Below are positions 21,632 through 27,392 of a stretch of DNA of 54,518 nt, piece by piece. The stretch's first letter is position 1. Each line of letters opens with the position of its first letter. Below the pieces are notes generated by a model. That model had not been told where the DNA came from. It searched no databases and was given only the letters and a program-made list of their open reading frames with translations. Position numbers and translations under genes: made by a program. Source of the DNA: Candidatus Nitrosopumilus sp. (GTDB lineage: Archaea > Thermoproteota > Nitrososphaeria > Nitrososphaerales > Nitrosopumilaceae); contig JAOLZN010000008.1 in NCBI GenBank assembly GCA_028343855.1, forward strand, positions 1 through 54,518, given 5' to 3'.

Positions 21632-22225
21632 TTGAAAGTAAAATGTGATGAAGAAGGTATCAAGAAAACATCTCAAGTTATTGATGAAGGAGGAATAGTA
21701 GTATTTCCAACAGACACAGTATATGGTATTGGATGTAATCCATACAATGAACACGCAGTAAAAAAAATTTATGAAATTAAATCAAGAGCAAAAGTAAAAT
21801 CATTACCTGTTTTAGCATATTCAATTGATATTGTAAAAAAAATAGTGACAATTGATGAATTTACTGAAAAGATCATAGAAAAGAATTGGCCAGGACCTCT
21901 GACATTAATTTTAGAATTAACAGATCAAAAATTGAAAGAATCATTGAACTTACAAAATAAAATTGCAGTTAGAATTCCTGATTCCAAATGTACCTTAAAA
22001 TTATTAGCAAAATGTGAATTAATTGTAGGAACTAGTGCAAATATTTCTGGAAATTCATCATATACAAATCCAGATGATTGTATAAAAGATATCAAAAATT
22101 ATGATATATTTCTCAATGGAGGAACAATTACAAGTAAAGGAGAATCAACAATAATTGAAATAGAAAATGAAAAAATCAAAGTCATTAGAGAAGGCGCATT
22201 AAAAATAGGAGACATTCAGGTATGA
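21632..22225 (+). CDS. threonylcarbamoyl-AMP synthase (Sua5/YrdC/TsaC)
   Basis: 197 residues from TTG 21632. Makes threonylcarbamoyl-AMP from Thr, bicarbonate and ATP for the t6A37 modification of tRNAs. YrdC landmarks: GGIVVFPTDTVYGIGC (about 20-35), IYEIKSRAKVKSLPVL (the KxRxxxxxLP ATP-binding stretch), WPGPLTLIL, VAVRIPD-like IAVRIPDS, and GTSANISGNSS. Short YrdC-type, without the C-terminal Sua5 domain. Overlaps the Tan1-like gene by four bases, and a convergent KEOPS-subunit gene follows. Confidence 0.93.
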   Translation: MKVKCDEEGIKKTSQVIDEGGIVVFPTDTVYGIGCNPYNEHAVKKIYEIKSRAKVKSLPVLAYSIDIVKKIVTIDEFTEKIIEKNWPGPLTLILELTDQKLKESLNLQNKIAVRIPDSKCTLKLLAKCELIVGTSANISGNSSYTNPDDCIKDIKNYDIFLNGGTITSKGESTIIEIENEKIKVIREGALKIGDIQV

Positions 22226-22746
22226 TGAATTTGATAGTTACATGTGCTAGACATTTGGAAGGTGAAACTGAGGATGAATTAATAGATATTTTAGATGAAT
22301 TAGGTGATTCTGATGTTAAAATTGTAGTTAGTAGTATGTCAGGAATAATTACAGTTCAAACAAAATTAGATCCAATTGAAGTAGTCAAAAAAATTAAAGA
22401 AATGGTATTAGATGAACCATGGAGTATTAGATATTGTCTAAGAATCATACCAATTCAAAAAATTGTTGAAACAAAAATAGATGAAATAGAAAAAATGATT
22501 TCAAGTATGTCAGAGCAAATTGAAGAAAAAGAATCATACAGAATATTAATTGAAAAAAGAAATTCAGATATTTCAAGTAAAGAAATAATTACAAAAATAG
22601 CAAATAGAATAAAAAATAAAGTTTCATTAGATTTTCCAGATAAAGTAATTTTAATTGAAATATTGGGTATAGTTACAGGAATTTCAATAATAAAAAAATC
22701 CGATATTCTAAGTCTTGAAAAGACTAAGAGAAGTATGTCAGATTAG
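22222..22746 (+). CDS. THUMP-domain protein, Tan1-like
   Basis: 174 residues. THUMP layout: MNLIVTCARHLEGETEDELIDIL at the N-terminus (seen in pieces LIVTCARHLEGE, TEDELIDIL), then a beta-alpha core, and the C-terminal ESYRILIEKRNSDISSKEIITKIA and VSLDFPDKVILIEILG. These match archaeal Tan1-like proteins, which bind tRNA and assist Kre33/TmcA-type acetylation to ac4C. Co-translated with Sua5/YrdC by a four-base ATGA overlap. The last nine bases overlap the convergent MoaD-Cgi121 gene. Confidence 0.87.
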   Translation: MMNLIVTCARHLEGETEDELIDILDELGDSDVKIVVSSMSGIITVQTKLDPIEVVKKIKEMVLDEPWSIRYCLRIIPIQKIVETKIDEIEKMISSMSEQIEEKESYRILIEKRNSDISSKEIITKIANRIKNKVSLDFPDKVILIEILGIVTGISIIKKSDILSLEKTKRSMSD

Positions 22747-23511
22747 AATAGAAGATTTTTCTACTAAAATGTCCTCTAAAGGAGTTTTAGAATAAACAGT
22801 ATCAATGTGCTTTTTTGAAATATTGAAATGTTTTTTTAAAAATAAATCATTGCTTTTTGAAAATAAATTTACACAAGAATCAGATAATTCAGAATAAATT
22901 GAACTAAATTGATTTTTATTTCCAATTGCAATTAAGATAAAATTAGTAGAAGGTTTCATCCCTGCTGATGAAATTGCATTAGAAATTTGTAGAGTAACTG
23001 CGAATCTCATCAAAATATCAGTTTCAATTTTTTTAGATAATAAAATTTTATTTTTTTCAGCATTAATTGAAAGGGATAAAATTTTTTTTAGATGTGATGA
23101 ATTGAGAATGAAATTACTCGATACAACTTGAAATTTAATTTTAGGATAATTTTTTCTCAAATTATCTATTAATGTAATATCAACTTCCTTTTTACCACGA
23201 ATTTCAAGAATTTGTATTTGTTTTTTTTCAATTTCAAAAATTAATTTTTTTGATGCTCCACCATGAATAACAGGTATAATACTTACAATATCACCATCAC
23301 GAACAATTGTATCTTTTCCATCCATAGCAGAAGAATCACAACCATTAATTGCAATTAAGATATTTTCAACGTCAATATTAGAAGTATTTTCAGGTTTATT
23401 TTTTATTAGTAATTCCAGTATTTTATTGATTGAAATATCAGATTCATCAATTTTTAATTCATCAGAATTAAAGGATTTTTTTGCTCCACCAATTAATTTT
23501 ATAGTTATCAT
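22738..23511 (-). CDS. MoaD/ThiS-type beta-grasp fused to KEOPS Cgi121-like domain
   Basis: 257 residues in two parts. Residues 1-85 look like a MoaD/ThiS/SAMP ubiquitin-like protein: ITIKLIGGAKK strand, LLIKNKP, ILIAINGCDSS, and the end DGDIVSIIPVIHGG, with the Gly84-Gly85 pair at the normal C-terminal place. From about 90 the chain goes on into a Cgi121-like domain: KILLSKKIETDILMRFAVTLQ, described as the LLRxAxTxQI segment, then ISNAISSAGMKPS and FILIAIG. Cgi121 is the KEOPS subunit next to Bud32 in t6A synthesis. ATG at 23509-23511. Neighbours are Sua5/YrdC and Tan1, which supports a tRNA-modification role. Whether the GG is cleaved or conjugated is unknown. Confidence 0.8.
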   Translation of the reverse strand: MITIKLIGGAKKSFNSDELKIDESDISINKILELLIKNKPENTSNIDVENILIAINGCDSSAMDGKDTIVRDGDIVSIIPVIHGGASKKLIFEIEKKQIQILEIRGKKEVDITLIDNLRKNYPKIKFQVVSSNFILNSSHLKKILSLSINAEKNKILLSKKIETDILMRFAVTLQISNAISSAGMKPSTNFILIAIGNKNQFSSIYSELSDSCVNLFSKSNDLFLKKHFNISKKHIDTVYSKTPLEDILVEKSSILI

Positions 23512-23553: not shown

Positions 23554-23910
23554 TTATTCTGTTTTCTCTTCATCAGATTTGGTTGAAGGTACAATGGTTT
23601 CAACTTCTTCATTAGTTAGAGTAATTTCTTCAAGAGTTTCAGAAATTTCCTCAGATTCTGTAACATCTAATGAAGATTCTTGCTCATCAGATTTAGAGGA
23701 ATCATAAGTACTTCTATCTTGTTTAAATTTTTCTTCACGAATTTGTTTTTTAATGAATCTTGTAATGTATCCTGCCACTTTATTTTTTAGGCCTTTTGAA
23801 CGGATTATAGAAACTTGGTTTAATGCTTTTTTATTATCAACAAAATCTTCACCAAATTTTGATTTATGATCATTCATTACTTCAAATGATAGACGCTTTA
23901 TCCTATCCAC
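23554..23910 (-). CDS. rps17e: small-subunit ribosomal protein S17e with acidic tail
   Basis: 118 residues from GTG 23908-23910. The first 62 residues match archaeal S17e: MDRIKRLSFEVM, FGEDFVDNKKALN and the basic end SKGLKNKVAGYITRFIKKQI. Archaeal S17e usually stops at about 62-70 residues; here a Ser/Glu/Thr-rich tail (about residues 66-118, for example ESSLDVTESEEIS) roughly doubles it. The tail would be disordered and acidic, unlike normal ribosomal proteins. It shares strand with, but is 42 bases upstream from, the start-distal MoaD-Cgi121 gene. Confidence 0.88.
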   Translation of the reverse strand: MDRIKRLSFEVMNDHKSKFGEDFVDNKKALNQVSIIRSKGLKNKVAGYITRFIKKQIREEKFKQDRSTYDSSKSDEQESSLDVTESEEISETLEEITLTNEEVETIVPSTKSDEEKTE

Positions 23911-23940: not shown

Positions 23941-24696
23941 CTATATTCCAAGAAAACGTTTTGTATTTTCTTCCAACATCAAGGACATTTCATCAAATGT
24001 TTTTTCAAGAATTTTAGATGCACAGAAAATCACACTAGGAATAAAGCTAATTTGTCCAGATTTCATTTCAAAACATCTAGAAAATCTAACAGGTCCATCA
24101 GTTTCAACAAGAATTTTTGATTCATCAGTTTTTGATAACAATGTCTGTTTATCATTTGCATAAATCATTACAGGTCCAAATGATACAAAAAAATCCATAT
24201 CCATAGCTTTTTGAAGTTGTTTTTTACTACCATCAAACCAATGTAATAAAGCATGTTTAGTATCATATGAAGACATAATTTCAAAAACATCATCAAGACT
24301 TTTTCTAGAATGAATAGATACAGGTTTATGAAATTTTTCTGCAGATGAAAGTAAGGATTCAAAAACGTGGATTTGTCTATTTTTATCATCATTATTTTTA
24401 CAATAAGTAGGATCTAATCCAATTTCACCCACACCAGAAATATTATTTTGATTTAATTCTATTAAATTAGTAATTTTTTCAAGATCATCATTTGCACATT
24501 CAGGATGAATTCCGATAAAAGGTAAAACAAGATTACTTTGTTTAGACAAAGATAACGTTTCTAATGAATTTGTAACATCCATTGAAACACAACAGGCTTT
24601 AATTTTAAGAAATTCCATTTGATTTAAAATAAAATTAATTTCTGGAATGTATGCAGGATCAGATAAATGAATGTGAGAATCAAAAGACCATGTCAT
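23941..24696 (-). CDS. TatD family metal-dependent hydrolase
   Basis: 251 residues. TIM-barrel metal ligands are in place: FDSHIHLSD (HxH, His7/His9), GVGEIGLDPTY (Glu), VSIHSRKSLDDV (His), ALLHWFDGS (His) and ILVETDGP (Asp). TatD proteins are Mg-dependent nucleases active in DNA repair or quality control of nucleic acids. ATG at 24694-24696. The sequence is shorter and more diverged than bacterial TatD but keeps every ligand. Divergent from the histone gene; the 96 bases between them hold both promoters. Confidence 0.88.
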   Translation of the reverse strand: MTWSFDSHIHLSDPAYIPEINFILNQMEFLKIKACCVSMDVTNSLETLSLSKQSNLVLPFIGIHPECANDDLEKITNLIELNQNNISGVGEIGLDPTYCKNNDDKNRQIHVFESLLSSAEKFHKPVSIHSRKSLDDVFEIMSSYDTKHALLHWFDGSKKQLQKAMDMDFFVSFGPVMIYANDKQTLLSKTDESKILVETDGPVRFSRCFEMKSGQISFIPSVIFCASKILEKTFDEMSLMLEENTKRFLGI

Positions 24697-25126: not shown

Positions 25127-25567
25127 TTATTCTACAATTACCTGAGCGAACATCCAAGGATGTAATGTGCAAAAGTAATCGTATGTACCAATTTCATCAA
25201 AAGATAAGGTGTAGGACTCATACGGATCTAAATGACCACTATCAAAAAGTCCACTAGGTTCAGGATAAAATCCAGAAGTTACACTATGAAAAGAAGAATC
25301 TTCATTTAACCATGTAACAGATTTTCCTTTTTCAACAACAATGTTGGATGGGATATAGCAAATATCCTCAATATCACATCCTGGGCGGGATACTTTCATC
25401 GGTATTACAACATCAGGTGGAATGAGGAAATCATTTTGCAAATTAATTTTTTCAGGGTTTGTTTCGTCAGGATTTGATATTTCAAAAATCATACCTTCTG
25501 CTGTTAACACAATAATTGAAATAGATACGCCCAAAATTATTGCCAAACTTATTATTTTTTTTATCAA
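25127..25567 (-). CDS. secreted or membrane-anchored cupredoxin (plastocyanin-like)
   Basis: 146 residues from TTG 25565-25567. N-terminal signal/anchor at about residues 4-22. A type I copper site is visible: His94 in FHSVTSG, then Cys133, His136 and Met139 in YFCTLHPWM. The sequence between is a beta sandwich (VEKGKSVTWLNED, FDSGHLDPYESYTLSF). Two extra cysteines (64, 70) may form a disulphide. Blue copper proteins are numerous in ammonia-oxidising archaea, where they replace cytochromes as electron carriers. The stop lies two bases from tRNA-Cys. Confidence 0.9.
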   Translation of the reverse strand: MIKKIISLAIILGVSISIIVLTAEGMIFEISNPDETNPEKINLQNDFLIPPDVVIPMKVSRPGCDIEDICYIPSNIVVEKGKSVTWLNEDSSFHSVTSGFYPEPSGLFDSGHLDPYESYTLSFDEIGTYDYFCTLHPWMFAQVIVE

Positions 25568-25640: not shown

Positions 25641-27392
25641 ATGTCACAAAATCCAAATAGTCTATTAGAATACATACCAGGATCACAGGCTCTATTAGTA
25701 CAAAAAAATTCTAGTCCACCTCTAGAAGGATTTGCAGAAAATATTAGAGAAAACATTCAGGAATACGCCGAAGATTCAAAAAGTGAAGTAGAAAAAGGCA
25801 ATAATTTTCTTCAATGGATTTTAACAAGAGTTTTTGAGGCTACAGAAGATGATGCAGCGGATGCAATTGTAGATGGAGCAAATGATCTAGGAATTGATGC
25901 ATATTTACCAGTAGACTTTTCAGATAATACAGTTAGATTATTTCAATCAAAATACGGCACATCACATTCACTTGAAGCAATTGCAAAATTCAAAGAGGAT
26001 GCAAAGAGATTACTCACAAAAGATATAACAAAAATGAGACCAGAATTAGCTCAGCTTGTTACAAAAATTAAAGAAAAAAATTTGAAAATAAAATGCTGTT
26101 ATGTTACAAATCAAAAAGTCGATTATCAAGATGAATTAGTAGAAATCATAGATGAAGAAAAAATAATTCAAAGGTTGTGGGATAGAATAAAAAAACCAGC
26201 AGCAGGTAAAAAATCATCTATTAAACTTGAAAGAATGCTTAGACATGAAAATACTATTTTAGGGATTTTAAAACTACGTGAATTAACAGACTTTGTAAGT
26301 AAAAACAGAGACTATGTCTTTGAATCAAACATTAGACAATGGATGCAATTTAAAACTACAGTTAACAAAGGATTAAGAGACACTCTACAAACAAATCCAG
26401 GAAAATTCTTTTTTTATAATAATGGAATTACAATAGTAGTTAGTGATTTTACAGAACTAGGAGAAAATATGATTGAGCTTTTTGCGCCACAAATTGTTAA
26501 CGGTGCACAAACATCAAATTCAATTTTAGATCATTCAAAGAGAACAAAAAATATGGACGGATCAATGACAGTAACCATAATCAAAGCAGATGATGAACAA
26601 GAACAAAACAATATTACAAAATATAGAAATTCACAAAATTCAGTTAGAGGAAAAGATTTAGTTTCGTTAATGGATTTTCACAAATCAATTAAATCACAAT
26701 TAAAAAATTGTGGATATTTTTATGAAATTCAAGCAGGTTCATTTGATACAAAATCAAAATCCAAACAATTAGAATACAATGGAGATGCAGCTTACAATAA
26801 TTATTTACCAGATAATCATAAAAAAGTCATTGTTGCCAAAGATGCAATTCAATCATTAGTTGCAGGTATTGAACAGAGACCAACTGAATCATACAGTTCT
26901 CCATCCCAGTTTCTTCCACGAGGAAGTAAGTATGATCAAATTTTTAATGAAAATCTTAAAGATGATTACAGGATTATACTTTATCCATATCTTGTAAAAG
27001 AATTTGCAAAAAAATCATTGAAATACGGAAAACAAGGAGGACATAAAACAAAAAGATATGCAACATTATTCTTTGTAGCAGTTTATTTCAGAATACTACA
27101 TAAGAAAATTTTAGAATCTAAAGGAGATTTTAAATCAGATATAAGAAAATTAGAACCAATATTTCATAGTTTTAAATTAAATAACAGAATTTTAAAAATT
27201 ACAGATGTAATTGTGACAAAGTTTCTAGACGATACTGTAGTGGATGATGAAATTGAATTAGCTAATACAAAACATAATTTTTTCTCCCAACATGTTTGGA
27301 ATGATTCAATGCTTCGAGTAATAGATAAGAAAATTAAACAAGAAGAAGAAGAAATTATGGCTCTAAAAAAGATAGCAAATAGTTTATTTTAA
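25641..27392 (+). CDS. AIPR-family abortive-infection protein with restriction-like N-terminus
   Basis: 583 residues. The centre matches AIPR (abortive phage resistance) proteins: NPGKFFFYNNGITIVV at about residues 252-267 and APQIVNGAQTSNSIL about 30 residues later. The N-terminal 160 residues resemble an Mrr-like nuclease: DGANDLGIDAY with Asp86 and then RLFQSKYG with Gln102-Ser103-Lys104, the D...QxK order of PD-(D/E)xK enzymes. The C-terminus ends in a charged coiled helix. AIPR proteins act against phage, usually by damaging nucleic acid in infected cells. Flanked by a tRNA and by a strong hairpin; no partner nuclease or methylase is adjacent, so it may work alone. Confidence 0.87.
   Translation: MSQNPNSLLEYIPGSQALLVQKNSSPPLEGFAENIRENIQEYAEDSKSEVEKGNNFLQWILTRVFEATEDDAADAIVDGANDLGIDAYLPVDFSDNTVRLFQSKYGTSHSLEAIAKFKEDAKRLLTKDITKMRPELAQLVTKIKEKNLKIKCCYVTNQKVDYQDELVEIIDEEKIIQRLWDRIKKPAAGKKSSIKLERMLRHENTILGILKLRELTDFVSKNRDYVFESNIRQWMQFKTTVNKGLRDTLQTNPGKFFFYNNGITIVVSDFTELGENMIELFAPQIVNGAQTSNSILDHSKRTKNMDGSMTVTIIKADDEQEQNNITKYRNSQNSVRGKDLVSLMDFHKSIKSQLKNCGYFYEIQAGSFDTKSKSKQLEYNGDAAYNNYLPDNHKKVIVAKDAIQSLVAGIEQRPTESYSSPSQFLPRGSKYDQIFNENLKDDYRIILYPYLVKEFAKKSLKYGKQGGHKTKRYATLFFVAVYFRILHKKILESKGDFKSDIRKLEPIFHSFKLNNRILKITDVIVTKFLDDTVVDDEIELANTKHNFFSQHVWNDSMLRVIDKKIKQEEEEIMALKKIANSLF

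Follow-up and report, generated by a model that had tools for sequence, protein, structure and literature searches.

A gene of Candidatus Nitrosopumilus sp., from the lineage of the ammonia-oxidizing archaeon Nitrosopumilus, encodes a ThiS/Urm1-type beta-grasp domain that ends in His-Gly-Gly and runs directly into a Cgi121 domain (about residues 88-257). This fusion is probably a precursor of the ubiquitin type, which a JAMM protease would cut after Gly85 to give an Urm1/SAMP-like modifier and Cgi121. Eukaryotic ubiquitin is made as ubiquitin-ribosomal protein fusions, and Urm1-type ubiquitin-like (Ubl) modules and KEOPS modules both belong to tRNA anticodon-loop modification. The Ubl-Cgi121 fusion is already known, having been described in 2010 (PMC2948915); the evidence on how it works, drawn from a comparison of many relatives, is new here.

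Results

A ubiquitin-like domain and Cgi121 in one reading frame

We analyzed a window of 54,518 nucleotides, by which we mean the whole stretch of DNA examined (contig JAOLZN010000008.1, positions 1 to 54,518). The features of interest are as follows.

21632..22225, plus strand: Sua5/YrdC threonylcarbamoyl-AMP synthase of the t6A pathway, convergent with the fusion gene (Pfam 1.1e-52; NCBIfam TIGR00057)
22222..22746, plus strand: THUMP-domain protein, of Tan1 type according to the earlier sequence-only reading, convergent (Pfam THUMP 2.1e-7)
22738..23511, minus strand: Ubl-Cgi121 fusion gene, 257 aa (ORF with ATG start; stop codon 22738-22740)
23257..23511, minus strand: Urm1/SAMP/MoaD-type beta-grasp domain, residues 1-85 (Pfam ThiS and Urm1; structure match)
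23257..23265, minus strand: His83-Gly84-Gly85, internal here and the C-terminus in split orthologues (invariance, zero entropy, low pLDDT)
22741..23256, minus strand: Cgi121 (KEOPS) part, residues 86-257 (CGI-121 match; solved Cgi121 structures; counterparts of tRNA-contact residues)
23554..23910, minus strand: rps17e, directly upstream of the fusion with a 42-bp gap (Pfam Ribosomal_S17e 1.4e-15)
23941..24696, minus strand: TatD-type nuclease, upstream of rps17e (Pfam 2.1e-48)

The sequence-only reading had proposed that one frame joins a beta-grasp module to a Cgi121-like domain. Indeed, Pfam, NCBIfam and structure matching of an AlphaFold model all agree on this, and the frame lies on the minus strand; frame 1 of the plus strand has no open frame across 22738-23511 and many stops. 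In Pfam, ThiS matches residues 13-85 (E=1.6e-8, 35.4 bits against a cut-off of 22.5), Urm1 matches residues 2-85 (E=6.9e-5, 23.6 bits against 21.8), and CGI-121 matches residues 114-214 (E=1.5e-6, 28.8 bits against 25). The NCBIfam model NF011465, "KEOPS complex subunit Cgi121," gives 141 bits for the whole protein, with a cut-off of 40. When solved structures were searched by sequence, the N-terminal part retrieved Urm1/SAMP-type chains and the C-terminal part retrieved Cgi121 chains, mostly more weakly. The AlphaFold model, a single chain built on 71 sequences, has a mean pLDDT of 91.3 but a pTM of 0.68, so both domains are well predicted and their relative placing probably is not. With VIA-align 2, model residues 1-84 match MoaD, Urm1, and SAMP1 structures (Z up to 11.9), and residues from 85-98 to 254-257 match Cgi121 structures from plant, human, yeast, and M. 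jannaschii (Z 11.6-17.6). The Cgi121 similarity on which the earlier reading had staked itself is clear both in sequence (Pfam, NF011465) and in fold. In several rows of the VIA-align 2 output, human and yeast Cgi121 begin opposite model residues 88-89, and there is therefore almost no linker between the Ubl and Cgi121. As encoded, 172 residues follow the GG, leaving no free C-terminal Gly carboxylate; proteolysis is required for one. Thiocarboxylation or conjugation by the Ubl part and Bud32 binding by the Cgi121 part are candidate functions.

We then compared the Cgi121 part with residues that contact tRNA. In the passages of PMC7718258 on the CCA end of tRNA, the contacting residues of mjCgi121 include Lys56, Met60, Gln71, Ile72, and Gly80; we compared these five, and mjCgi121 Phe21 falls outside the aligned region. 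Gln71, Ile72, and Gly80 correspond to Q175, I176, and G184 of the fusion (from the alignment, numbered by hand) and are invariant in 80/80 relatives. At the Lys56 position the same 80 relatives have N in 63, K in 16, and H in 1. The fusion shares its fold (Z 11.6-17.6) and, by this alignment, counterparts of part of the CCA-contact residues with mjCgi121 and human TPRKB; unlike them it carries an N-terminal Ubl, and where mjCgi121 has Met60 most relatives have Thr (62/80; I in 10, M in 7, S in 1).

The co-directional upstream neighbor of the fusion, rps17e, was absent from the sequence-only reading, whose Sua5/YrdC neighbor is borne out by the Pfam match. The THUMP gene and the fusion gene share 9 bp at their 3' ends, and a histone gene lies beyond TatD in the window. 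A block of rps17e, ubl, and cgi121 recurs in the sister-family loci L024-L029 (neighbors named by eye). Convergent THUMP and/or sua5 genes occur in 5/6 of these (L024, L025, L027, L028, and L029); the stretch of L026 contains neither. Elsewhere in the window, 25641-27392 on the plus strand encodes a protein of 583 aa in which Pfam finds a strong AIPR domain (3.8e-58), from a family linked to abortive phage infection, and 25127-25567 on the minus strand encodes a plastocyanin/azurin-type copper protein (Pfam 9.5e-8) with a hydrophobic N-terminus.

Conservation and disorder at the Gly-Gly junction

The sequences read were the best 80 of 149 candidate loci that carry titles, mostly Nitrosopumilus or Nitrosarchaeum, together with 22 alignment rows and further fetched loci; titled and untitled sets overlap in species, and their counts are not additive. 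E1, JAMM, Cgi121-only, and threonine-synthase-like loci, as well as L238, were left out of the Ubl-Cgi121 rows. One locus, L067 (JADFJJ010000046.1), is titled Proteobacteria bacterium yet carries the archaeal fusion gene; it probably belongs to a mislabelled bin.

The Gly84-Gly85 pair that had been placed at the end of the beta-grasp domain is present and invariant. All 80 titled loci have one ORF with HGG, and GG is found likewise in 22/22 rows of the separate alignment, in which identity between fused proteins goes down to 34% with HGG still invariant. HGG is also kept in 89/89 loci read with domain profiles. The expected conservation among homologues thus holds, with a single exception outside family f1 (G038, below). 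In the 80 titled loci the longest invariant run is I82-H83-G84-G85; residues 59-61 form the sole other one of at least three. Over these loci the mean entropy is zero at positions 82-85, 1.03 bits at 1-81, 1.11 at 96-257, and 1.85 at 86-95, the highest of the four segments computed. Immediately after HGG, the residue is S in 58 loci, A in 13, L in 4, T in 3, V in 1, and I in 1. Residues 83-85 are the only segment of three or more residues with a pLDDT below 50 in a model averaging 91.3, so the conservation of the GG segment looks unlike that of a folded core. Codons for G84 vary freely (GGT 31, GGA 29, GGC 15, and GGG 5 in the 80 loci), which shows that selection acts on the protein. Invariant sites make up 18/85 of the Ubl half and 16/172 of the Cgi121 half (Fisher p=0.011, an indicative value, as the sequences are related). 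Since this GG, invariant and predicted to be disordered, occupies the position at which split orthologues end, a precursor that would be cut after Gly85 fits the pattern.

We also considered the GG as a hidden ribosome-binding site for an internal Cgi121 start and rejected this as a general cause. GGAGGT is present in only 19/80 loci, and 47/80 have no in-frame ATG, GTG, or TTG within 25 codons past the GG.

Fused and split forms among relatives

At least 234 of 250 genomes of family f1 match the fusion profile, 7 of them at E above 1e-10 only and probably via Ubl-E1, and all 22 genera searched have a match among the matches listed. An order-wide search gave matches in at least 133/151 genomes. 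Of 89 loci read with profiles, 33 are fused. Another 44 are split and have cgi121 on the stretch that was read, and 12 show the Ubl alone. The 56 non-fused loci (44 plus 12, including G246 of f1) mostly end where the fused Ubl domain does: 41 stop exactly at HGG, 14 have a tail of 1-9 residues, and one has 189. In loci read by hand, the Ubl C-terminus is HGG in L026, L027, L028, and L030 and HGG plus four residues in L024; L029 comes from the same genome as L130 (G040). We examined stop-codon readthrough in split pairs as well and rejected it, cgi121 being in the ubl frame in 18/44, a share not different from one third (p=0.34).

Several loci show what can follow the GG. In G246:C9 (L188), of family f1, a TGA stands one residue after GG and is followed immediately by TTG and the Cgi121 frame; the parts are split again. 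With a TTG right after the stop, a ribosome-binding-site reading of GG is possible for this locus. In G034:C62 (L131), the HGG of the Ubl runs into a phosphoribosyltransferase domain (189 residues after GG), and cgi121 is a separate downstream ORF, showing that the Ubl partner can change while GG stays. G038:C77 (L025, about 880-1614) holds a separate fusion of both domains in which the Ubl has lost its GG (LHCSA), so fusion does not always keep GG. The G038 genome, the single one of the GG-less family f15 in the comparison, is 82% complete and has neither a ThiF nor a Prok-JAB match, which fits a precursor model, yet this is one incomplete genome. Genus g51 of family f8 is mixed: of its eight genomes searched, four are fused, three are split, and G330 has no match, with HGG in all seven, among the matches listed.

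On a tree of 77 rows, all with HGG, the fused and split states need 5 changes, at least 3 of them forced by starred branches; this tree was made quickly, has long branches and contains two doubtful joins, and it served for the change count alone. It was built without G038 and the hand-read L024-L030, except G040 (L029 = L130). In the tree 29/30 f1 rows are fused, the exception being G246. Besides one whole family, a few other lineages have the fusion, and sister lineages mostly have neighboring split genes. That whatever follows the GG has been repeatedly gained and lost, with different partners, again fits a precursor.

Partners of the ubiquitin-like domain in the same genomes

A modifier released from the fusion would need an activating enzyme and a protease, and we looked for both, as well as for a free Ubl. 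Among 25 f1 genomes, 24 of them with a ThiS match, no match was found in a free small ORF (Pfam ThiS, E<=0.001), a threshold on which this result depends and which a strongly diverged free Ubl could escape. The matches sit in frames of the size of the Cgi121 fusion or the E1 fusion, two of them (G005 and G016) cut by contig ends.

The genome of the fusion, G000, encodes an E1 with ThiF at G000:C9 (E=2.0e-75), itself a Ubl-E1 fusion. The second Ubl of f1 is this E1 N-terminus, and AGG is kept before the E1 part where read (e.g., L133:5413-6735 in G006; L113 in G000). The E1 gene has a threonine-synthase-like ORF on one side and an S-layer-like ORF of 1525 aa on the other (both named by eye) and is missing from many drafts. 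Among the matches listed, E1 is found in 24/24 f1 genomes that consist of a single contig, each of them with a match to the fusion profile too, and in at least 181/250 f1 genomes overall; ThiF was not found in 69/250. We examined 18 of these 69. In 15 a close threonine-synthase-like neighbor is lacking too (29-34% matches or none), and in the remaining 3 it lies at a contig edge or is truncated, so in the 18 the absence of ThiF seems to stem from gaps in assembly or binning. On the strength of these 18, genomes with a fusion and without E1 were set aside as counter-evidence to Ubl activation.

Prok-JAB proteins are present in 38/41 genomes, and f1 genomes mostly encode two proteins of JAMM type. 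Both Prok-JAB proteins of G000 carry HxHPx6SxxD, the JAMM+ signature. Within f1, 24/25 genomes have Prok-JAB, and the exception is 56% complete. It is also present in G025, G026, G029, and G034, the other genomes read in that set whose Ubl has a tail or another partner. In G037 and G038, which have no Prok-JAB match, the Ubl needs no cut, as it ends at HGG in the former and has lost GG in the latter. JAMM presence does not track fusion, since most lineages without need of a cut also have JAMM, and with 38/41 genomes positive it decides little as a discriminator of fused from split. NcsA-type TIGR00269 occurs in 39/41 genomes (35 over the cut-off), G000 included, and Kae1/TsaD in 22/25 (G000:C11, E=9.1e-70). 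These genomes hold E1 and JAMM+ proteases and no detected free Ubl, a combination that a precursor would account for.

Discussion

In its passages on the fusion, the study of Makarova and Koonin from 2010 (PMC2948915) reports a Ubl-Cgi121 fusion in each of the Thaumarchaea available at that time, an N. maritimus fusion gene apparently cotranscribed with S17, and a Ubl-E1-TBP fusion in Thaumarchaeota. It proposes regulation of KEOPS by SAMPylation, or coordinated functioning, and its passages on cleavage, precursors, and processing contain nothing on processing of the Ubl-Cgi121 fusion. Fusion, lineage, and S17 neighbor are the same in that account and ours; the scope given there is all Thaumarchaea, whereas we find split genes elsewhere. 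Among the papers listed for Cgi121 or KEOPS with ubiquitin-like proteins or Urm1 in archaea, this was the one that, judging by the listed entries, bears on the fusion, and a search joining Nitrosopumilus, JAMM, and small archaeal modifiers returned none. The matched passages of PMC4508532, PMC9654439, PMC9889334, and PMC10989989 do not mention it.

Cleavage of such fusions has precedents. According to the relevant passages of PMC4443979, HvJAMM1 cuts an artificial linear fusion of SAMP1 with MoaE precisely after Gly. That fusion has no activity until it is cut, and no cleavage was detected in cells once GG was deleted. PMC8832034, in the part concerned with DRJAMM, describes cutting of a natural MoaD-MoaE fusion in Deinococcus and cites earlier work in which HvJAMM1 did not require the diglycine on linear fusions. 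If so, GG may owe its invariance to E1, which would act on the released end, as much as to a protease that recognizes it. Like the protein studied here, SAMP1-MoaE (Haloferax, artificial) and MoaD-MoaE (Deinococcus) have an N-terminal beta-grasp Ubl, an internal GG, a partner subunit, and a JAMM in the same organism. They differ in that their partner is molybdopterin synthase and not a KEOPS tRNA-modification subunit, and here the cut is a prediction. CsJAMM cuts SAMP precursors in Caldiarchaeum, as a section of PMC6043591 describes. These Ub/SAMP precursors and the eukaryotic ubiquitin-ribosomal protein fusions likewise have residues beyond GG that would need removal; the Ubl here is of Urm1/SAMP type and its extension is a complete Cgi121. 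Unlike in the ubiquitin-ribosomal protein fusions, the ribosomal protein gene here, rps17e, is a neighbor and not the fusion partner.

We propose the following course of events. The gene, probably cotranscribed with rps17e, would be translated into one chain. A JAMM/MPN+ metalloprotease, possibly either of those encoded, would cut it after Gly85, releasing a mature Urm1/SAMP-like modifier that ends in HGG. The E1, which is UbaA/Uba4-like, could activate this Ubl, presumably for tRNA sulfur transfer via NcsA and/or protein conjugation; in the portion of PMC4048286 on Haloferax, SAMP2 is proposed to serve NcsA-type thiolation. The other product, Cgi121 with a nearly native N-terminus, would take its place in KEOPS as the subunit that binds the tRNA CCA end for t6A synthesis. 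One counterpoint is that the first Cgi121 strand starts only about three residues past GG, and access of the protease is therefore not assured. The sequence-only reading had offered a direct link between the Ubl and t6A synthesis as one inference and a precursor cut after GG as another, and the second appears the better supported. The direct link holds as genetic linkage, in neighboring genes that often form one ORF; it does not hold as a shown mechanism, with adjacency alone in most sister lineages read, a split in G246, and another partner in G034.

A second reading, which we consider unlikely, is a permanent two-domain subunit. The Ubl would then serve KEOPS as an arm for docking or regulation that, for example, recruits tRNA-thiolation enzymes to the t6A complex, with GG serving binding and not chemistry. 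Wide retention of the fusion in f1 suits this reading, as do the preserved counterparts of three Cgi121 tRNA-contact residues, the involvement of both modules in anticodon-loop modification (in the passages concerned of PMC4048286 and PMC7718258), and the link between the Ubl system and KEOPS proposed in the corresponding part of PMC2948915. It sits poorly with invariant residues that fall in a predicted disordered segment and are C-terminal in split orthologues, with a covalent link lost in G246 and absent from most sister lineages read, and with the phosphoribosyltransferase partner in G034.

We regard as decidedly improbable that the fusion is a regulated store, mostly uncut and inactive, in which conditional JAMM cleavage turns on the Ubl and KEOPS together. 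t6A synthesis is a housekeeping need and the gene adjoins rps17e, both of which argue against such a switch; uncut Cgi121 might still work, and we saw no sequence sign of regulation. A store would nonetheless agree with the two JAMM-type proteins in most f1 genomes, the failure to detect a free Ubl in f1, and the inactivity of SAMP1-MoaE until cut by HvJAMM1, in the account of that experiment in PMC4443979. Lastly, a meaningless chance fusion by loss of a stop codon, with GG retained through too little time, is disfavored and very improbable: fusion is easy, since in sister lineages ubl and cgi121 lie side by side in one direction and several pairs are one in-frame stop apart, but matches occur in 22/22 f1 genera searched (among the matches listed), identity falls to 34% with HGG invariant, and the positions beside GG have diverged.

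The proposed maturation of the fusion as a precursor is well motivated, and the fusion is real and old within its family. Its wide retention in f1, with one re-split seen, hints that the covalent link may bring some benefit. As a more tentative proposal, f1 may encode no free-ended Ubl at all. Its pool would come from Ubl-E1 and Ubl-Cgi121, JAMM would be an obligatory gate, and for each molecule of the Urm1-like sulfur carrier (s2U34) one KEOPS subunit (t6A37) would be made. Relatives that have split again or fused separately offer natural controls. At stake is whether this lineage makes its modifiers in precursor form, as eukaryotes do with ubiquitin, and whether Urm1-type thiolation and KEOPS t6A synthesis, both acting on the tRNA anticodon loop, feed from one polypeptide.
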